Assembly (NCBI GenBank): GCA_016873095.1
Contig: VGYC01000034.1
Span: 1 to 47,968, forward strand
Source of the DNA: Planctomycetota bacterium
GTDB lineage: Bacteria > Planctomycetota > Planctomycetia > Gemmatales > Gemmataceae
Direction: 5' to 3'
DNA length: 47,968 bases
Position numbers and translations under genes: made by a program. A model generated the notes under the pieces. That model had not been told where the DNA came from. It saw only the letters and a program-made list of their open reading frames with translations, and did not search any database. Shown here piece after piece: positions 438 to 45,528 of the stretch. Each line of letters starts with the position of its first letter. Position 1 is the first letter of the stretch.

Positions 438-2168
438 TTGGGCCGCACGATTAGCGTGGCAGCATTCCTCACCCTGTTCGCCGGGCTGGGAATGGAGATG
501 CCGGCGCAGGACAAGGGTAAGCCGGACAAAGGCAAGCTCGACAAGGGCAAGCCGGTTGTCGATAAGGGCGTGGAGGCGCCGGTACGGCCGCAGGTGAAGT
601 ACAAGCTTCGCTCGGCGGTACGCACCGGCTACACTCGTCCTGGCGCGCCTCCGGACACCATCAACAAGGACGGCAAGGTCCGCCCGGTTGCCTGGGATCC
701 GGATTTCACGGGCAAGCTCATCGGCGGCACCATCTACTTCGCGGTGCTGGAGCGTACTGGCAATGAAGGCGATTCCTGGGGCTCCGGTGTCGACGGCTTC
801 AATGACCGCTTTGTCGAAGGCAAGAGCTTCCGCAACAATTATTCGCCGGGGCTCGATAAGGAAGCGAAGTACCTTTATCTCTATCAGGTCGTCAATGATC
901 GCGGGCTCGACCCACCGTCGGAAGGTGTCGTCCCGGCCGGCTTCCCGCCCAAGGATCTGCGCAGCCTGCCCATCGCGGGCACGGCGCTGCGCTTGATCGT
1001 CGATCCACGTTACATCACGTCGTGGGGCCATTTCCGTGGCGTGGGCTTCAACGCCACCGTGCCGGACCGTGATCGCAAGGGGGACATTCGCGAGGCTGCG
1101 GACAAGACGCCGGAGATTCTGCCCATCGCCTTCTCCAGCAATCCGTCCATCCTCAGCGAGTTGCCGTACCACAAGTATCTCGACCCGTCACCGGCCTATC
1201 CGCTACGGGAGCTGCGTGATTCCTTTGGCCTCGGATCCGCCGGACTCAACCTGAGGGCGTCGTCCGCCTATGCTGAATTGCTCAAGAAGAAGAAGGCCGA
1301 CGCCAAGGCGGTTTCGCACTTCGAGGAGAATATGCTTCAGTCTGCCGTGCAGGCCAAGGAGCCGGACTTCGTGCAGATCATTTACTCGGGCAGTCAGTTT
1401 CAGGAGGGGACGCAACCCGCCACTGGCATTCTGGGCGGCATGGCCCGTCCGGTCGATCCGACCGAGATCGTGCCGCATACCGACACGACTCCGGCGGTCG
1501 CCATCTTCCGGGCTGATTGGCGCGGCGCCAACAACAACGTGAAGCTTGGCTTCCACAGTGTCGTGTACGGCTTCACCACGGATTTGCCGCCGACGGATGA
1601 GCCCATTCGCATTGAAGATCCGGAAGCGGCCCTCAAGGGCGCCGGAGTTTTGGATGGGATCCGGCCTGCTGCCGATGGCCTCGCGCCTGGCGTCGTGCCC
1701 GCCCTGGCGGCCGGCGTGGCTCCCGGAATGGCCCCAACGCCTGTGCCGGCGCCGGCATCGGCGACTCCGGTGGCGGGCGGCGCTGGCGCCGGCTTGCTCG
1801 GCGGCGGCCCCATCGGCGTTGCCGGCGGCATGCCCATGGGCGGTGGCGCCGGCGCCTTCGGCGGCGCTCGCCCCCCGATCATGGGCGGCGGCGGCGGCGG
1901 CTTCTTTGGCGGCGGCGGCGCACAGGATCAGCAGCAGCCGCAAGACCAGAACCAGACTGGCTCCCAGATCATCAACGTCAATAATTCACAGAGCCAGAGC
2001 CAGAACCAGAGCCAGCAACAGCAGCAGCAACAGCAGCAAAGCCAGCAACAGAGCATCGACCAGGGCGTCATCCCCGAGCCGGGCGCCATCATCCTCGCTC
2101 TGCTTGGCCTGCCGGGCCTCTGGCTCGCCCAGCGTCGTTTCGCCAACCGGGCAACCGTGGTGGCGTGA
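438..2168 (+). CDS. Exported PEP-CTERM protein with Gly-rich and poly-Gln tail
   Basis: The protein has 576 residues and an unknown function. It begins with a Sec-type signal (MGRTISVAAFLTLFAGLG, cleavage near PAQ) and a Lys/Asp/Gly-rich stretch with DKGKPDKGK repeats. A folded-looking region of about 350 residues follows with no family I recognise. Next come an Ala/Pro/Gly-rich linker (about residues 410-490) and a Gln/Ser-rich tract (about 495-540). The end is a PEP-CTERM-like sorting signal: PEPGAIILALLGLPGLWLAQ, then RR. In known systems such tails are recognised by an exosortase, so surface anchoring is inferred. Only a TTG at 438 gives a start in this frame. An ATG at 416 with a better upstream purine run is in another frame and stops after 12 codons, so a start-region frameshift is possible. 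A strong terminator follows. Confidence 0.8.
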   Translation: MGRTISVAAFLTLFAGLGMEMPAQDKGKPDKGKLDKGKPVVDKGVEAPVRPQVKYKLRSAVRTGYTRPGAPPDTINKDGKVRPVAWDPDFTGKLIGGTIYFAVLERTGNEGDSWGSGVDGFNDRFVEGKSFRNNYSPGLDKEAKYLYLYQVVNDRGLDPPSEGVVPAGFPPKDLRSLPIAGTALRLIVDPRYITSWGHFRGVGFNATVPDRDRKGDIREAADKTPEILPIAFSSNPSILSELPYHKYLDPSPAYPLRELRDSFGLGSAGLNLRASSAYAELLKKKKADAKAVSHFEENMLQSAVQAKEPDFVQIIYSGSQFQEGTQPATGILGGMARPVDPTEIVPHTDTTPAVAIFRADWRGANNNVKLGFHSVVYGFTTDLPPTDEPIRIEDPEAALKGAGVLDGIRPAADGLAPGVVPALAAGVAPGMAPTPVPAPASATPVAGGAGAGLLGGGPIGVAGGMPMGGGAGAFGGARPPIMGGGGGGFFGGGGAQDQQQPQDQNQTGSQIINVNNSQSQSQNQSQQQQQQQQQSQQQSIDQGVIPEPGAIILALLGLPGLWLAQRRFANRATVVA

Positions 2169-2185
2169 CAGCTTGATTTGTTCCC

Positions 2186-2221
2186 AAGGGGTGGTGCATC
2201 TCGTGATGCATCACCTTTTTT
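2186..2221. terminator. Bidirectional rho-independent terminator
   Basis: An 11-bp stem (2190-2200 with 2205-2215, one G-T pair) and a TCGT loop are followed by six T. On the other side an A/G-rich run (AAGG, 2186-2189) can serve the opposite strand. It lies between two convergent genes, ending at 2168 (+) and 2244 (-). Confidence 0.85.
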
Positions 2222-2243
2222 CGTGCGCGTGGTTCTTTTCTGC

Positions 2244-3947
2244 CTACTTGCTCGTCAACCAGATCGTCTCGAAGGCAGCGTTGAGTCGCGGTGCCGTCCG
2301 CACCCTCCGTTCCAGGCCTTTCGGCTGGCTGGCCAAGCCGACGAGGCGCACCGGACCAGAAAATGCTTTTCCCTTGCATGTCAGCTTCAGCGTCACGGCG
2401 GCGGCGCTGGGTCCGGTCGGCTCGGACACCGCGGGCGCTGCCGTCACGCCATCAGGCAGCCCCACGACACGCAGGACGATCGGGCCAACCGCACCGTATC
2501 GCTGCACCTTGATTGGAATCTCGACGGGCTTGGCGGCCGTGACGATGATGCTCTCGCTGGTCGTGGTCAGCTCGAAGTCCGGCGTCTCTCGCCTCACGGT
2601 GAGGCGATAGACGTGGCGTGGTCCACCGTGCCGGTAGCGATCCTGTACAACCACCCGGTAATCGCCATCCTTCGTGGCGACATGTGCAAAGGCCAGGTCG
2701 CGCGTCGTGCCGGTGTCGTCCACATCGGCGACCACCGCGCCGTCTGGGTTCAGCAGCTTCACGACCGGGTCGAGCGGGAAGTGCAGATGGTTGGATTCGA
2801 CGCTGACGACAAAGTGCTGCCCTTTCTTGAGCGCAAGGCGATACACATCCGTCTGCCGGGGTGTTCGCAGCCAGCCGGTGACGGTCGAGTCCATGAGCAC
2901 GGACGGTGGCGACTTCGCGTTTGCTGGCGTGGTTGGTTCGACCACGGCAAGTGCCGTCAGCCGGACGCGCGCCGCGCCGGCAAGAGCAGGACTGAAAGCC
3001 AGGCCCAGACCAGCGTCGGCGGGAATCCGCAGATCCGGCGCGGCTTCGGACTCGAAATACTCCGCCAGCTTGAGGCCGCCCAGGGGCCGCACGGGCAGCC
3101 TGGTCCCCGGCGAAATGTTCCAGCCACGCACTTCGACCTCGCCCGGCTTCGTTCGCGACACCGCCAGTGGAACCGCATGCGTGATATACGGGCCGGTCGT
3201 GAGCGTCAGACGATAGATGTAGTTCGGGGCGCCGCTGAAACTGATAGCCGTCCCTGGGTCGGCCGGAAACGCGAAGATGCGCACGACGTAAACACCTGAC
3301 TTGGTCGCTGTGAACGCGAGTCGTGGATCGTAGCCGAAAGAGTCGTTGTTCTCGGCCAGCACGTCGCCATCGACGCTTGTTACCTGCAGGATCGCATCCA
3401 TGGGTGAGCCAAGTCGCGTGTGGGCATCAACCGCCGCCACCAACGTCTGCCCGGCATTGACGCGCACCGAGAAACCATCAACATCGCCCGGCTTGGACAG
3501 GACGCCGTTGACAACACAGCTGGCTTCCGCGACATGCTGGGCCGTGCGCGGGGCATCGTTCGGCTCCGTTTCGCTGATTTCTTTCAGGCTGCCGATCAAG
3601 AAGGGAGCGGATGTGGAGGCGCCGTCCGCGTTGTACAGGCGGATCCAGGCGCGATCCGCGGCCAGGTCCTTGGGGATGCTGATCTCCAGCTTGCCGGCTT
3701 CCTTTCCAGGCTTCACCTCGAGGCCCGGCGCCCAGACAGAGACCGGCCAGGTGAAGCTGCCCGTGGCGGTGACGACAACCTTCGTGCCGCGCTGCCCGCC
3801 GGCGGGGAACAGGTGGGTCAATGTCGGTGGGGCGGCATGAGCCTGAATCGTGAGGATGACGAGCAGAAACGGCGACCAGCAGAACCGCGCGCGAAGCAAG
3901 CGGCAACCGCGGGCGCGTCTTGTCTTGATGGACTCTTGGCATTCCAT
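2244..3947 (-). CDS. PPC-domain exported protein
   Basis: A 567-residue exported protein. An N-terminal signal peptide (hydrophobic FLLVILTIQAHA, cleavage after AHA) is followed by an Ig-like/IPT-type stretch (PTLTHLFPAGGQRGTKV). Two or more bacterial pre-peptidase C-terminal (PPC) type beta domains follow: one around residues 130-245 (ETEPNDAPRTAQ ... GDVDGFSVRVNAGQTLV ... YRLTL) and one around 345-450 (TDVYRLALKKGQHFVVSVES ... YRLTVRRE). PPC domains are non-catalytic beta sandwiches of secreted proteins. In Planctomycetes such proteins commonly lie beside PSD1 and DUF1501 genes, as here. The gene is 280 bp downstream of DUF1501 on the same strand, and the hairpin repeat at 4141-4196 between them suggests reduced read-through. 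The function of the trio is not established. Confidence 0.85.
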   Translation of the reverse strand: MECQESIKTRRARGCRLLRARFCWSPFLLVILTIQAHAAPPTLTHLFPAGGQRGTKVVVTATGSFTWPVSVWAPGLEVKPGKEAGKLEISIPKDLAADRAWIRLYNADGASTSAPFLIGSLKEISETEPNDAPRTAQHVAEASCVVNGVLSKPGDVDGFSVRVNAGQTLVAAVDAHTRLGSPMDAILQVTSVDGDVLAENNDSFGYDPRLAFTATKSGVYVVRIFAFPADPGTAISFSGAPNYIYRLTLTTGPYITHAVPLAVSRTKPGEVEVRGWNISPGTRLPVRPLGGLKLAEYFESEAAPDLRIPADAGLGLAFSPALAGAARVRLTALAVVEPTTPANAKSPPSVLMDSTVTGWLRTPRQTDVYRLALKKGQHFVVSVESNHLHFPLDPVVKLLNPDGAVVADVDDTGTTRDLAFAHVATKDGDYRVVVQDRYRHGGPRHVYRLTVRRETPDFELTTTSESIIVTAAKPVEIPIKVQRYGAVGPIVLRVVGLPDGVTAAPAVSEPTGPSAAAVTLKLTCKGKAFSGPVRLVGLASQPKGLERRVRTAPRLNAAFETIWLTSK

Positions 3948-17296: not shown

Positions 17297-18358
17297 CTAG
17301 CGCTTGACCGCCAACACCCAGGTCAGGCTCTTGCCGTCGGCCACGACATGCACTGGCGTGAGCCGGCCAGTTGCCGTGTCCACCCGATAGACAATCAGCT
17401 TGCCGTTGCCCTCGCCGGCGCCGAAGACATAGCGGCCGTCCGGATCGATCTCGACAGAGCGCGGCGTCTTCTCCGTCGGCGTTTGTCCGAGGGGCGTCAG
17501 CTTGCCGGATGCTGCATCGATGGCGAAGCCGGCCAGGCTGTCGTGTCCGCGGTTCGAGACCCAGACAAACTTGCCGCTCGGATGCACCTTGACCTCGGCC
17601 GTGCTATCCTTGCCTGACTTCTTGTAGTTGGCGGGCAAGGTGGACAGCGTTTGCGATGGCTTCAAGCCATTCTTCGGGTCGAACTCATAACCGGTGATGC
17701 TGAGACCTGTTTCGTCCGACGAGAAAGCAAACCTGCCGTTGGGATGAAACGCCAGATGCCGCGGTCCCGCCTTGTCGGCGCCGCCGGGGGCCTTGCCGGC
17801 CTCCGTCAACCTGCCCGTTTCGCCATCAAACCGAAACTGATAGACAGCGTTCGGTTCGACGTGTGGCACAAAGACGAAGCGATTGTCCGGACTGAGCGCG
17901 ATGTTGTGAGCCGTCTTGGCTGTCGTCACTGTCTGCACCGGCGGCGAGATGATCTTGCCGTCGTCATCGATGCGGTGCACCACGACCTTGCCTGCGGCAT
18001 ACGACGCGGACAGCAGCCAGCGGCCGGTGCGGTCCGTGCCGACAAAGGCCGCGTTCTCGCCCTTGGGCAGTTCCACGGTGCTGATGAGCTTGAGTTTTCC
18101 AGTCGCCGCATCGAGAGAAAAACTGGCCAGCGCGCTGGTGCTGCGCAGTGAAGCCAACAGGTATTTTTTGCGCGGATCGACCGCCAGGGAGCCTGGCGTG
18201 CCATCGACGGCGACGGCATCGCTAGCGGTCAACGTACCGTCCCCGGGGTTGAGCCGATAAATCTGAATCTTCTGCTCGGGGGCCATGGAGACGTAGAGAA
18301 ACGTTTCGGCATGTGCGGCCATTGGAACACCCAGCATGAGAGCCAAGATCAATCGCAT
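17297..18358 (-). CDS. Exported lactonase-type seven-bladed propeller (6-phosphogluconolactonase-like)
   Basis: A 353-residue protein of the lactonase/YbhE propeller family (Pfam 10282 type). Repeats of the form DGTPGSLAVDPRKKYLLASL, NIALSPDNRFVFVPH and PRSVEIDPDGRYVFGAGEG are spread evenly. The start at ATG 18358 has GGAGAA about 8 bases upstream and begins a signal peptide (LILALMLGVPMAAHA); the open frame upstream to 18550 is not needed. The cytosolic relative hydrolyses 6-phosphogluconolactone. Export argues that this one acts on another lactone or is a non-catalytic propeller. It ends 17 bp from the convergent YHS gene. Confidence 0.87.
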   Translation of the reverse strand: MRLILALMLGVPMAAHAETFLYVSMAPEQKIQIYRLNPGDGTLTASDAVAVDGTPGSLAVDPRKKYLLASLRSTSALASFSLDAATGKLKLISTVELPKGENAAFVGTDRTGRWLLSASYAAGKVVVHRIDDDGKIISPPVQTVTTAKTAHNIALSPDNRFVFVPHVEPNAVYQFRFDGETGRLTEAGKAPGGADKAGPRHLAFHPNGRFAFSSDETGLSITGYEFDPKNGLKPSQTLSTLPANYKKSGKDSTAEVKVHPSGKFVWVSNRGHDSLAGFAIDAASGKLTPLGQTPTEKTPRSVEIDPDGRYVFGAGEGNGKLIVYRVDTATGRLTPVHVVADGKSLTWVLAVKR

Positions 18359-18549
18359 CGGTGGTTCTCCGCGACGTCTCATGTCAAGACACCGGCGCCC
18401 GCATACGCAGATTGCAAGACGCGTGTCCTGCTGGTGTACGAAATGAGGGGCGAGTTTCCCACCATCTGACCATTGCTTCTTGGAACGTGTGACGCGCGTG
18501 TCATGTGACCGCGTCGTTCCGGCGGGTGTAAGAGCGGTCTGCGAGATCA

Positions 18550-20238
18550 CTACGGGCGCGGCGTGCGTGCCGGTGGAGGCTCGGCGGTCTCGAAGGGGTC
18601 ATGTGCAGTCGCCGCATCGGTGAACAGGCCGTAGACGCGGCGGACCTGCGCGAAACTGTCCGCCGGAGGAATGGGAACAAGGCAGGGAGCGAAGCCAGCC
18701 TGACGCAGTTCCGCTTCGCAGTCCATGGCGGCGACGACATAGCGCGGTCGTTCGCCGGCTGGCGGCAGGCCGCGCGTCGTCCAGGCGCTCTTGATGGCGC
18801 GACGCGTGTAGAATCGTGCGCGGGCGGCCAGGTTCTGAAAGATACGCACGTCCGCCCCGGACTCGACCGCGTGGTTCAGCGCGAGAAAGAGTTGCGTCTC
18901 TTGACGATACGTATCGGTGCGCTTCAGCCACCGGGCATGGACGTAGCCGTAAACCGTCCAGAGCAACACAAAGAGTGAAATCAGTGCCAGACGTTGCCGC
19001 CCATGGATACACGCCTGGCCTGCCAGAACGGCCAGGCCGGCGCTGAGCGTACCGACGATGGCGATTTCCCAAGCGATTGCCGATCCCAGCCGCGCGTGCA
19101 GCGCTGCACCGGCGACCGAGGGCAACGCCAGCGCAACCGTAAACAACAACCGGCGTGCACGCCAGTGCCGCAGGCGGGAAAACTGCCTGACCCACCAATG
19201 CAGGCCTTCGGCGGCCCAGAAGGCGCATGGCGGCAACGCATGGATCAAGTAATGGTGATGCTTGCCGCGCGAGCAACTGAGCAGGACCGCCGGAACGAGC
19301 AGCCAGATCCATAGCAGGCGATCCAGCCCGGCCACGCGGCGTGCCTGCTTGAACGATGACCACAAACCCGGCATCATGGCCAGTGTCCATGGCAAGACCT
19401 GCCAGGGCAATGTGCTTGCATAGTACCACGCCGGCTGACTGAAGGTCAGACCGTGAGCGGCCCGGCCCAGCGAGTGCTGCCACCAGGTCGCCATTGCCTC
19501 CGGATGCACCTGCATGACGAGCAGGGGCCAGGCTGCGGCGAGGGCAATGAAAATAGCCCAGCCGGTGGGATTCAGCAGGAACCGCCAGACCTGACGAGAG
19601 CGTTGAGTCAGCGCCCAGCAGATGCAGATCGCCAGCACCAGCGCTGCGCCGAAGAAGATTCCTTTTGCCAGGTTCGTGAGGCCGAGGAGCACAAAGAATA
19701 TCAGCGACTGGCGGCGTGCCGCGGCTGGATGGATGCAGAGCGTCGTTTCATGGCGGACAAATACACACAGGCAAGCGCTCGTCAGCAGCCAGAGATAGAT
19801 ATCGGCCTCGGCCAGGCGCGCATAGGTAATGAACCAGACCGAGGTGGAGACGATGAGCCCCACGAGCAATCCAAAATTCCGGCCGCGCAGCCGAGCCGCC
19901 AGGCTTGCCAGCAGCAACACCCCCAGAATCCCGCACGCGCCGGACGGCAACCGGGCAACTCGCTCGTCGATGCCGCCGCACAGCCAGCCGAGCGCGGCGA
20001 TCGCCCAGTGCGCCAGCGGCGGCTTCTCCAGCCACGGCTCGCCGCACAGTGTCGGCGTTAGCCATTGCCCGCTGGCCAGCATCTCGATGGCGCCCTGGAC
20101 TACGGGCGCTTCATGCGAGGTCAAGGTGCGCGCGGAGCCAAGATGCCAGAAGATCAAACTGCCGGCGAAGATCGCCAGGATAGACAAAGATCGCCAACCA
20201 AGGCCTGTCGGCGTCGCGAGCGAGGATTGAGCGTTCAT
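18550..20238 (-). CDS. Membrane glycosyltransferase, GT39/ArnT-like (GT-C fold)
   Basis: A 562-residue integral membrane protein with about ten hydrophobic segments. The family signature sits in the first periplasmic loop: LTSHEAPVVQGAIEMLASGQ, then WLTPTLCGEPWLEKPPLAHW, with the conserved Glu after His (HE instead of the usual DE) and the EKPPLxxW block. Such enzymes transfer a sugar from a polyprenyl-phosphate donor to lipid or protein in the periplasm. The ATG at 20238 is chosen because GAGGAAA lies just upstream and the membrane segment follows; the frame extends to 20415 but that leader overlaps the neighbouring gene. The kinase gene ends 47 bp upstream on the same strand, so the pair may form an envelope-glycan operon. 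Confidence 0.88.
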   Translation of the reverse strand: MNAQSSLATPTGLGWRSLSILAIFAGSLIFWHLGSARTLTSHEAPVVQGAIEMLASGQWLTPTLCGEPWLEKPPLAHWAIAALGWLCGGIDERVARLPSGACGILGVLLLASLAARLRGRNFGLLVGLIVSTSVWFITYARLAEADIYLWLLTSACLCVFVRHETTLCIHPAAARRQSLIFFVLLGLTNLAKGIFFGAALVLAICICWALTQRSRQVWRFLLNPTGWAIFIALAAAWPLLVMQVHPEAMATWWQHSLGRAAHGLTFSQPAWYYASTLPWQVLPWTLAMMPGLWSSFKQARRVAGLDRLLWIWLLVPAVLLSCSRGKHHHYLIHALPPCAFWAAEGLHWWVRQFSRLRHWRARRLLFTVALALPSVAGAALHARLGSAIAWEIAIVGTLSAGLAVLAGQACIHGRQRLALISLFVLLWTVYGYVHARWLKRTDTYRQETQLFLALNHAVESGADVRIFQNLAARARFYTRRAIKSAWTTRGLPPAGERPRYVVAAMDCEAELRQAGFAPCLVPIPPADSFAQVRRVYGLFTDAATAHDPFETAEPPPARTPRP

Positions 20239-25354: not shown

Positions 25355-25891
25355 ATGAAGTCCATCTGCTGTATTCTGGCGATCTTGACAGCGCTTGCCG
25401 GTTGCGGCAGATGGCGGCGCGAGCGTCAGATCGTGCCGTGCACGACCTGCTGCGTGGCGGTCGGCCAGCCGGCGCCGGAGATCACCGGGCAGGACATCGA
25501 CGGCGCCCCGATCAATCTCAGCGACTATCGCGGCAAGGTCGTCGTTCTCGAATTCTGGGGACACTGGTGAACTGCGTGTCGCCGGATGTACTCGCACGAG
25601 CGGTCGCTCGAGCAACGTCACGAAGGCCGCCCCTTCGTCTTTCTGGCCGTCAACAGCGACGCCGATCGCACGCAAGTCAAGCAGATCCTCGCCGAGGAGA
25701 ATCTAATCTGCCGTTGCGTCTGGGATGGCGGCGGCCCGGAGGGCCCGATCGCCACTCGGTATGGCGTTGAGCGCTGGCCGACCACCTTTGTGCTCGACGG
25801 CAACGGCGTCATCCGTTACAGCAACGTGCATGGCCCGGAACTCGACCAGGCCGTCGAAACGCTTCTACAGGAACTCGAACGCCGCCAGTGA
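25355..25891 (+). CDS. Thioredoxin-like lipoprotein (TlpA/redoxin type) with in-frame TGA: candidate selenoprotein (UxxC)
   Basis: One reading frame of 179 codons is interrupted only by a TGA at 25568-25570. Residues 1-16 form a lipoprotein signal with a canonical lipobox (LTALAGC). The redoxin domain follows: VGQPAPEITGQDIDGAPINL, then SDYRGKVVVLEFWGHW, TGA, TACRRMYSHERSLEQR, then FVFLAVNSDADRTQVK and the cis-Pro region YGVERWPTTFVLDGNG. In the TlpA/AhpC-TSA families the position after FWxxW is the first catalytic Cys of WCxxC, so codon 72 (TGA) replaces exactly that Cys and C75 is the resolving Cys. No frameshift or second stop occurs. A hairpin 31 nt after the TGA fits a SECIS. I infer selenocysteine; alternatives are a nonsense mutation or a sequence error. 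It would act as a membrane-anchored thiol/selenol oxidoreductase. Confidence 0.75.
25597..25610 (+). promoter_or_regulatory. SECIS-like hairpin after the TGA at 25568
   Basis: CGAGC (25597-25601) pairs with GCTCG (25606-25610) around the loop GGTC (25602-25605). Beyond one A-A mismatch, two more pairs (25594-25595 with 25612-25613) extend the stem. The loop starts 31 nt after the TGA, within the roughly 16-37 nt used for bacterial SECIS elements, and has G at loop position 1 and GU at positions 2-3. Short GC-rich hairpins are frequent by chance, so the position and loop are the main support. Confidence 0.55.
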
Positions 25892-43686: not shown

Positions 43687-44877
43687 ATGAAACAGCAAGC
43701 CATTTTTCTTGCTCTGACAACATGCGCCTTCGCATCAGCTTGGGACAGCCCCGCCGGTGAACCTGCTACCAAGCGCAACGCCGAATGGGTCCGCAAGCGC
43801 GTGCAAGCCTGGCAAGCAACCAAGGCGGAGCGTGCCTTCGACCAGATCGGCTGGGCTGCCAGCCTGCGGGAAGCCCAGCGGCTAGGAAAGCAACACCAGC
43901 GGCCGGTGTTCCTGTTCACCTATGACGGCGCCAGCCTGTCCGGCTACCGTTGCTGAGGCGGCGCCTCGGCCATGAGAGCGAGTTCGCTCTCCAGCGCGAA
44001 GGTCATCAGCCTGCTCAACAGCTACTTCGTCCCCATGCACATGAACAATCAACAGGCCGAATCCGAGCCAAATGAAAAAGCGGCACGGAACCGGATCTAT
44101 CGCGACGCGCTGGCCGCGGGTCTGAAGGCCGGCAGCGTGTGCGCCTACATGGTGGCGCCCGACGGACGGCCTCTCGCCGTCGCCCCGCTGAACGATTCAC
44201 TGGCCACCGACCCGGAGCGCCTGGCCGGGCTCATGGAGCAGGTCATCCGCGAGTTGAAGGTCGCCAAGGGTGATGCGCTTGTCAAGCCGTCGCCTCCGTC
44301 CGCTCCGCCGGCCGACGCCGATGCGCTCGTTCTGCATGTCGTGGCCCGTTACCTGGAACGCCGGGGGAAGGACCTTGTCCCCCATGACGTCAAGGAGGTG
44401 CTGGGGACAAGGAAGGCGGGCAACTGGGGCAACCTGCCCTCGGAAGGCTGGGTTGTGCTGAGCAAGCCGCAATGGACCAAGCTACTACCACCAGGCGACG
44501 TTGCCCCGAATATCACCTGGGAACTCGACAAGAAGGTCACAGCAAGGGTGCTGAATCACTTCTACCCGCCCACCGAGAACACCGACCTGGCGAAGAACCG
44601 CATCGACCAGCAGACACTGCAAGCCCGCGTGGAAGCGATCGACAAGGGCGTCGCGCGGGCCCGCCTCGAAGGCCGGCTGCGGATGAAGCATCCCTTCTAT
44701 CACAAGGACGACAACTACTTCGTCGAGGCCGACCTGGTGGGATATCTGGAATTCGACGTGGGCAAACAAGCTGTGCTTTCGCTTCGCCTGGTCACCGACA
44801 ACGGTCGCTACGGCGTTGACGGCAAGAGCATGCAGCCATTTGGGGCGGCGGTGCGGGAAGTGCGGGCAGCGAAATGA
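43687..44877 (+). CDS. Thioredoxin-like exported protein with in-frame TGA: candidate selenoprotein (Cys-Sec)
   Basis: One frame of 396 codons plus stop, interrupted only by TGA at 43954-43956 (codon 90). It has a Sec signal (IFLALTTCAFASA). The first domain looks thioredoxin-like: AFDQIGWAASLREAQRLGKQ, RPVFLFTYDGASLSGYRC, TGA, GGASAMRASSLSSAKVISLL, NSYFVPMHMNN. This is the place where related folds have their redox Cys motif, here Cys89-Sec90 if TGA is decoded. I recall similar planctomycete proteins broken at the same RC-TGA-GG site (from memory). A second region (about residues 205-390; NLPSEGWVVLSKPQWTKLLP ... RMKHPFYHKDDNYFVEADLV) has no family I know. The 300 codons after the TGA are intact. 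Otherwise it would be a truncated pseudogene pair. A TPR gene starts 6 bp after its stop. Confidence 0.75.
43974..43991 (+). promoter_or_regulatory. SECIS-like hairpin after the TGA at 43954
   Basis: GAGAGCG (43974-43980) pairs perfectly with CGCTCTC (43985-43991) around the loop AGTT (43981-43984). The loop begins 24 nt after the TGA and has GU at loop positions 2-3, the same as the hairpin at 25597-25610 (GGTC). Distance and loop are as expected for a bacterial SECIS read by SelB. No obvious bulged U is seen inside the stem; an unpaired T (43973) is next to its base. Confidence 0.62.
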
Positions 44878-44883
44878 GGCGTC

Positions 44884-45528
44884 ATGAGCAAACCCGAATG
44901 GTTTCGTCGCAGCACTTGGAGCGACACTGATCGCGAGGAGTTCTGCGACCGTCTCAAGCGCAGCCGCGGCGCCGGGAGCAAGGCGCAATATCTGCGAATC
45001 CAGGCTGGTCACCTTGCAGAAGCTGGCGACCACGCGGGCGCGATCGAGCTACTCGATCGAATGCTCACAGAGTTTCCAGAAAAATTCCAGCTCGCGATGG
45101 CCCATGCACAGAAGGCAGAGTCGCTGGCAAAGCTAAGCCGGATCGAAGCCGCGATCGAAGTATATCGGGCAGCGTTGCAAGCCGAGCGAGAGTTCCCTAC
45201 CGTTCGAACTAATGCGTGGCTTGATTTTGCCCAGTTGGTCGTTGAAGGCCAGATGCATGCTTTATACTCGGAAGCATCGCAGATATTGCAAGAGTTCCGC
45301 GAAGAGGGCGATCTCAAGTTGCCTGCCTTGGAATATCGGTATGCCGCGATTCAAGCGAGCCTCGCCGATGCACGTGGCGACAAGGCATGCGCAGCGGAGT
45401 TTGCCAGACAGGCACTTGTAGAAGCCGACAAGGACCATTCCGGTTTGCGGTATCACCCAACGGTCGGGCTGGTTGGCTCCGAACGCGATAAGTTCGAAAG
45501 CCGGCTGAGGGCTCTGGCCAGGAGCTAA
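44884..45528 (+). CDS. Hypothetical protein with TPR-like helices
   Basis: A 214-residue cytoplasmic protein of a family with an aromatic N-terminus (SKPEWFRRSTWSDTDREEF) followed by helical repeats: YLRIQAGHLAEAGDHAGAIE, LAKLSRIEAAIEVYRAALQA, and ASLADARGDKACAAEFARQA. These look like two to three TPR units. No enzymatic motif is present. It lies 6 bp after the candidate selenoprotein stop codon and 14 bp before the FGGY kinase, so the three may share a transcript. The biological link is unclear. Confidence 0.75.
   Translation: MSKPEWFRRSTWSDTDREEFCDRLKRSRGAGSKAQYLRIQAGHLAEAGDHAGAIELLDRMLTEFPEKFQLAMAHAQKAESLAKLSRIEAAIEVYRAALQAEREFPTVRTNAWLDFAQLVVEGQMHALYSEASQILQEFREEGDLKLPALEYRYAAIQASLADARGDKACAAEFARQALVEADKDHSGLRYHPTVGLVGSERDKFESRLRALARS

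Follow-up and report, generated by a model that had tools for sequence, protein, structure and literature searches.

Does the TGA triplet at codon 90 of a 396-codon frame in this planctomycete DNA end a protein, or does it specify selenocysteine (Sec)? The window, i.e. the whole stretch of 47,968 nucleotides that was analysed, comes from a draft genome of 8.36 Mb in 548 contigs, 95.5% complete. A sequence-only reading had described a frame with one internal TGA and about 300 intact codons beyond it, and had inferred an exported thioredoxin-like selenoprotein. The frame is as described: it runs over 396 codons (43687-44874), its single internal TGA is codon 90 (43954-43956, in the context GYRC-TGA-GGASAMRASSL), 306 open codons follow, and its terminal stop at 44875-44877 is also TGA. 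We conclude that residue 90 is very probably Sec, placed in a thioredoxin fold, an assignment that rests on comparison of sequences and has not been shown biochemically.

The gene and its surroundings

The features of the gene and its neighbour are as follows.

43687..44877, + strand: predicted selenoprotein gene, complete, 396 residues (frame, translation, full-length relatives)
43687..43758, + strand: probable signal peptide region at the N-terminus, up to about residue 24 (by-eye reading)
43951..43953, + strand: codon of Cys89, immediately 5' of the Sec codon (sequence, clade conservation)
43954..43956, + strand: TGA codon, interpreted as selenocysteine 90 (homologue comparison)
44884..45528, + strand: TPR protein gene (starts 6 nt past the selenoprotein stop)

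The first 24 or so residues show, by eye, a Lys, a hydrophobic stretch and small residues, and the same region has low pLDDT in the structural model. Flanking genes encode a divergent sortilin/BNR-repeat protein, the TPR protein and an FGGY kinase; a transcript shared between the selenoprotein and TPR genes is possible by inference.

A second gene of the window, at 25355-25891 on the + strand, is TlpA/redoxin-like and carries an in-frame TGA (25568-25570) in the context GHW-TGA-TAC, a UxxC arrangement. Read through its TGA, it matches Pfam AhpC-TSA (5e-21) and Redoxin (2e-20), and it is probably a second selenoprotein gene. The window's own genome also holds two further TGA-bearing superfamily members, L195 (G000:C16) and L196 (G000:C138), with the motifs GGC-U-SGGRAVR and GHPLGCT-U, respectively.

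Conservation of the TGA among homologues

Homologues were collected with queries that had Cys at the Sec site, so that Cys forms were not disfavoured. The phylum search, covering 392 genomes, gave matches in 44; among the 56 matches listed, 47 contain exactly one TGA, 8 contain no stop, none contains TAA and one contains TAG. That lone TAG match (L130) looks spurious from its context and was excluded. A profile search of 23 genomes of the class of G280 matched 11 of them, with 58 matches, 49 of which have one TGA. G280 alone accounts for 14 matches, all with TGA, and G115 for 13, with TGA inside the match in 10. The corresponding profile search in the window's class, over 397 genomes, gave matches in 114. 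Among the matches listed there, two rows contain TAG: L170, in which TAG occurs alone, at a contig edge and downstream of the Sec site, and G525:C76, in which it accompanies a TGA. In this search the TGA position was inspected in fetched loci only, G525:C76 not being one of them, and L170 was excluded. One scan of genome contigs returned two loci.

These searches yielded 119 homologous loci with the TGA inside the match, 117 of them clean on inspection. All but one come from Planctomycetota; the exception, L048, bears the label of a Verrucomicrobiales MAG, which could be a binning error. L136 and L196, where the TGA falls just before the matched stretch, are outside the 119, and L126 and the first match of L155 repeat loci already counted. 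Two loci, L148 for its masked bases and L129 for its contig edge and second TGA, enter neither the alignment of 85 rows nor the counts of Arg codons and Cys offsets.

In that alignment the TGA occupies one column, invariant in 85 of 85 homologues, as the selenoprotein reading had required of its relatives. The only other columns conserved to at least 90% are one Trp and the Arg at +7 from Sec, the latter found in 114 of the 119 loci. Identity between the window protein and five relatives is 44-59% over the 55-59 codons before the TGA and 45-52% over the 270-295 codons after it, where divergence is greatest at third codon positions. This continued identity, together with the third-position divergence, argues that the gene is not decaying and that what follows the TGA is not an unrelated gene, and homologues that end at the TGA and continue into unrelated sequence were not seen among these five relatives.

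The TGA could nevertheless be a true stop, leaving an 89-residue fragment and a separate protein that restarts at 43972, where an in-frame ATG, 16 nt 3' of the TGA, does open a frame of 301 codons. We consider this very unlikely: the TGA column is kept in very divergent homologues in which nearly all other columns vary; the stops of the phylum search, among the matches listed, are TGA, with no TAA and the one apparently spurious TAG; a covarying hairpin follows; and a split here would cut the thioredoxin fold just before its active-site helix. A pseudogene or a sequencing error would account for a single stop in an otherwise open frame of a draft assembly, but the same TGA, its position checked in the fetched loci, recurs across genera in many genomes that were assembled independently, and coding constraint persists downstream of it. 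Its probability is next to nil, the homologues refuting it for practical purposes, in agreement with the initial judgement that the gene is not decaying. Reassignment of the code and reinitiation were also weighed and rejected; TGA being also the terminal stop speaks against a general code change.

The hairpin downstream of the TGA

43974..43991, + strand: bSECIS-like hairpin, arms 43974-43980 and 43985-43991, loop 43981-43984 (sequence, resampling, covariation)
43975..43977, + strand: AGA codon of Arg97, the near-invariant Arg at +7, within a hairpin arm (codon count)

The perfect 7-bp hairpin with loop AGTT that had been noticed is present (GAGAGCG and CGCTCTC, seven perfect pairs). Its start had been placed 24 nt after the TGA, which needs correcting: the stem starts 18 nt past the TGA (17 nt between), and 24 nt is the gap between TGA and loop, the loop lying at 25. 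Bacterial SECIS elements follow a rule of a set distance from the TGA and a G in the loop; the loop of the window hairpin contains G. No Rfam family matched anywhere in the window at gathering scores.

Taken alone, the window sequence gives limited support. One of 100 rounds of synonymous-codon resampling produced an equally stable hairpin at SECIS distance (p = 0.02), and dinucleotide shuffling shows nothing unusual in the local fold (z = -1.32; 23 of 200 shuffles do as well), so that the weight falls on comparative evidence. In 20 close sequences (L175 was dropped because its stretch is identical to that of L174), 92.1% of cells are paired, compared with 67.9% at most when the partners are slid. 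Two-sided changes occur in seven cells, six sequences having U-A in place of C-G and one having A-U in place of G-C. The covariation score of this clade exceeds that of all 500 shuffles. Three of five covariation measures beat the shuffles; the other two do not: for doubly changed pairs, 71 of 500 shuffles score as high, and for further pair types all 500 do. Five of the six U-A sequences are on the tree, all in one subclade, and the six changes may represent only one or two events. Three close relatives form only four of the seven pairs. The covariation expected among relatives is thus found in the close clade, on three measures of five.

Across 86 homologues (L148 was dropped from this set), 29 have a perfect stem of 6 bp whose centre lies 26 nt past the TGA (synonymous null 2.4, maximum 7, 300 rounds), and 28 have a perfect stem of 5 bp with its centre at 20.5 (null 6.0, maximum 13). 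One register or the other is filled in 56 of the 86 (null mean 8.0, maximum 16, 300 rounds) and neither in 30; both registers were picked on the same data on which they were tested. When the 3' arms were dealt anew, 6-bp stems stood at 27 against 8.3 (maximum 17) and at 14 against 1.5 (maximum 6). Hairpins taken singly reach p <= 0.05 in 29 of 86 cases, with a median of 0.09.

Codon use inside the hairpin was also compared. AGA, a rare codon in the genes of this family, encodes the +7 Arg in 22 of 82 cases, whereas elsewhere in these genes it accounts for 60 of 2073 Arg codons (p = 3e-14). These comparisons indicate that the hairpin is under selection.

Selenocysteine machinery

The window's genome encodes SelA (571 bits), SelB (381 bits) and SelD (287 bits), all above curated cut-offs, with SelA and SelB adjacent on contig C81 and SelD on C117. 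The invariant TGA column, the covarying hairpin and these three proteins together support the selenoprotein reading. That reading also called for both SelB and tRNA-Sec in the genome; SelB is there, but tRNA-Sec was not found in the draft assembly, whether by Rfam, by pattern or with a model based on the tRNA-Sec genes of 13 planctomycete loci, and ARAGORN and Rfam did not reveal one on C81 or in 20 of the 24 kb of C117. In this genome the tRNA-Sec searches gave Leu and Ser tRNAs at best or no match at all, and relaxed ARAGORN and a regular expression each returned only noise. The genome-wide searches had 1100 to 3100 first-look candidates, of which no more than about 150 were scored.

ARAGORN recovered a tRNA-SeC with TCA in 13 of the 15 genomes that were tested with Rfam, which indicates that the method works. 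The two exceptions, the window's own genome and G280, are both drafts; G280 has a weak SelA match (2.6e-20) in an assembly that is 87% complete. The tRNA-Sec gene lies at contig ends in G120 (on two contigs, C28 and C48) and in G117 (C81), which makes assembly breaks at this gene plausible. We regard the missing tRNA-Sec as an assembly gap, which cannot be shown.

TGA homologues are present in 36 of the 392 phylum genomes, and in 35 of these 36 SelA is found at E <= 1e-117. Of the 356 other genomes, 204 have SelA above its cut-off (Fisher p = 2.9e-7 for the comparison); this test was not corrected for kinship and includes the window's own genome. The lack of a detected tRNA-Sec in the window's assembly leaves room for the idea that the TGA is read through with an amino acid other than Sec. 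We find this extremely unlikely, given the presence of SelA, SelB and SelD, the co-occurrence of TGA homologues with SelA, and the tRNA-Sec genes in 13 of the 15 tested genomes, the other missing case being the incomplete G280 with its weak SelA.

Fold and active site

43831..44271, + strand: thioredoxin-like domain, residues 49-195 (AlphaFold2 model, PDB comparison)
44323..44865, + strand: C-terminal beta-rich domain, residues 213-393 (model; aligns across many members)

The AlphaFold2 model, built on a 44-row alignment, reached a pLDDT of 90.3. Foldseek gave one PDB match below 0.001, the DsbH-domain protein 7tkv (E 6.8e-4). For residues 49-195, VIA-align placed 7tkv at Z 11.7 (127 residues, 3.0 A), followed by the DsbH structure 2ju5 (11.5), AGR3 (11.3), AGR2 (10.8) and DsbD-gamma (9.9), rows within 1 Z being treated as tied. 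For the C-terminal domain, modelled alone at a pLDDT of 93.1, the PDB gives no match of confidence: the lowest Foldseek E is 0.04, and the highest Z, 7.1 with OmpA, falls in a range that the tool calls common. The fold of this domain is therefore left unassigned.

Residue 90 directly precedes helix 91-98. Both a family HMM and a supplementary alignment put the Sec site on the first Cys of the CFWC/CHWC motifs in six DsbH-type proteins of the same phylum, and the second Cys is replaced by Ala in the window protein (C-U-G-G-A). At +3, the position of this resolving Cys, 75 of 85 homologues have Gly or Ala and 3 have Cys. Cys occurs at -1 in 35 of the 85 and at -2 in 24, and 23 have none within -4 to +8.

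The adjacent Cys-Sec pair, which had been put forward as the redox centre, holds for the close clade, where 19 of 20 sequences have Cys at -1, but not for the superfamily as a whole, which suggests that the pair is a clade feature added to a core of Sec plus Arg. Chemistry shared between Cys89 and Sec90 is accordingly a tentative proposal that we rate somewhat below even. Alternatively, the same selenoprotein could carry a peroxidase-type centre with one selenium, reduced by external thiols, in which Cys89 is incidental. The absence of Cys at +3 in 82 of 85 sequences, the 23 with no Cys nearby, and the restriction of the constant parts to Sec and Arg+7 are consistent with such a centre, whereas the retention of Cys89 in the close clade and the nearest folds, mostly thiol-disulfide proteins, speak against it. 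We consider this one-selenium centre possible but rather doubtful.

Homologues without selenocysteine

Inspection of 13 non-Sec homologues showed that the Sec site is occupied by Ser in five (L117, L141, L149, L158, L197), Asp in three (L049, L119 and, by eye, L189), Gly in two (L163, L191), Pro in one (L167) and Cys in one (L190); in L030 it is Cys or Ser, the alignment being unclear. Six canonical CxxC DsbH-type proteins were also matched. A Cys counterpart at the TGA position, the other form in which conservation might have been expected, is thus clear in only one of the 13, and the family is almost Sec-only.

Six of these homologues are close to the window protein (L049, L163, L167, L189, L190, L191), and all six contain sigma-70 region 4. 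Region 2 is found in four of them, once below cut-off, and some of the fused frames are cut by the limits of the fetched stretch. From regions 2 and 4 we infer that these are ECF-type sigma factors with a thioredoxin-like domain at the C-terminus. On a tree of 28 rows, the sigma-fused homologues require one state change, though support for this is limited (74/91, with a single origin in 76% of the bootstrap trees). Together with Sec-bearing outgroups, this suggests a single loss of Sec tied to the sigma fusion.

On contig C104 of G200, a sigma-fused gene without Sec (17551-18720) lies immediately upstream, on the same strand, of a Sec gene of the same clade (18737-19810).

A signalling role is the main functional rival: the selenoprotein would report the redox or metal state outside the cytoplasm, within a system that also uses the sigma-fused copies. 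The fusion of all six inspected close non-Sec homologues to sigma-70-type factors and the gene order in G200 are in keeping with such a role, but the fused copies lack Sec and no sigma factor gene is among the genes flanking the window copy. We judge signalling unlikely, without dismissing it.

Proposed function

We propose that the gene encodes an exported two-domain selenoprotein, export being inferred from the signal-like N-terminus. SelB would bring Sec-tRNA to the TGA at 43954 by way of the hairpin at 43974-43991, resulting in Sec at residue 90. In the N-terminal domain, a thioredoxin fold of the DsbH/AGR/DsbD-gamma type, Sec90 would stand in for the first Cys of CxxC, the attacking one, where the active-site helix begins. 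Its selenolate, perhaps steadied by the near-invariant Arg97, is inferred to attack an oxidised substrate outside the cytoplasm. In the close clade the intermediate might then be resolved as a selenenylsulfide with Cys89, and in members without a neighbouring Cys by an external thiol. Binding of the substrate or of a partner is the probable role of the C-terminal beta domain, again by inference. The protein would thus be a selenoenzyme active on thiols or peroxides outside the cytoplasm, its substrate unknown, with export, redox chemistry and catalysis all inferred.

In its widest form, our hypothesis is that Planctomycetota hold a very large superfamily of exported proteins with a thioredoxin fold, essentially Sec-only and overlooked by common methods that rely on TGA/Cys pairs or known relatives, and that these proteins form, with the Sec-less sigma factors, a selenium-based system of extracytoplasmic redox sensing or maintenance. 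We place this whole close to an even chance, but stop short of it. The 14 Sec genes matched in one genome, with almost no Cys counterparts, run contrary to the usual picture of Sec as a rare variant of Cys proteins. If the hypothesis is true, planctomycete selenoproteomes are undercounted and, by inference, many genes of the family have probably been called as two pieces. The family also offers a clean test of what Sec, unlike Cys, does in the thioredoxin fold, and the sigma-factor fusions hint at a possible regulatory link.

Comparison with known families

A 2026 inventory lists 119 prokaryotic selenoprotein families (PMC13188914). In the part of it that was available, no entry fits the window family by name or motif; some entries carry no motif and are covered only by our NCBIfam scans. 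The string "planctomycet" is absent from the text of PMC13188914. According to the accessible part of the deep-Sep paper, selenoproteins almost always have homologues with Cys, and its filter requires a known Sec homologue or Cys homologues (PMC12013277); we infer that a near-Sec-only family is easy to miss by such filters. As far as its available text goes, a 2016 planctomycete genome paper reports selenoprotein candidates in two strains, listed in supplements (PMC4807772), and an earlier listing of a family member among them cannot be excluded. Planctomycetes are hardly present in the selenoprotein literature searched, which was open-licence only, so that absence from print is not shown; this large family was not found in the catalogues searched.

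Neither Pfam nor NCBIfam yields a match to the window protein itself at E <= 0.01, and it reaches no cut-off. Its best Pfam match is a sub-threshold one to DsbH, PF03190 (E 0.031, 14.7 bits against a cut-off of 27), and 7 of 44 family members match PF03190 at E <= 0.01, the best at 1.5e-4.

Glycine reductase is an enzyme system unrelated to the window family. Its selenoprotein A is described, in the part of the source available, as having no known Cys homologues (PMC1794560), and in this limited respect it resembles the near-Sec-only window family.

The VPGUxxT (seleno)proteins (NF041382/NF041383) share with the window family, judging by the motif name, a Sec without Cys at +3, whereas their motif is VPG-Sec and that of the window is YRC-Sec. 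Their models show weak similarity to the N-terminal domain of a few members (L047, 18.5 bits); inspected members score 13.7 to 41.4 bits, against curated cut-offs of 350/275, and the window protein has no match to either model at E <= 1.

The selenoprotein domains of TsoB, DsbD-gamma and Trx7/PDZ (NF045694, NF041199) are thioredoxin-like too; the available part of the inventory lists TsoB as a rhodanese/DsbD fusion with two Sec (PMC13188914). Among the outlying members, L118 and L128 of G244 have U-GGC motifs and resemble TsoB/DsbD-gamma and VPGUxxT domains. These two, which match the TsoB/DsbD-gamma models, lie outside the window's clade; it is possible that they bridge the known and new selenoprotein families.

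AGR2 and AGR3, eukaryotic secretory proteins, have the same subfold as the window protein and are not known to contain Sec. The DsbH group (Thioredox_DsbH, DUF255, PF03190; NF043050), including 7tkv and 2ju5, likewise has the thioredoxin subfold in common with the window protein. Compared with DsbH, the window protein lacks CxxC, having lost the second Cys and carrying the putative Sec in place of the first, and it has an extra C-terminal beta domain.
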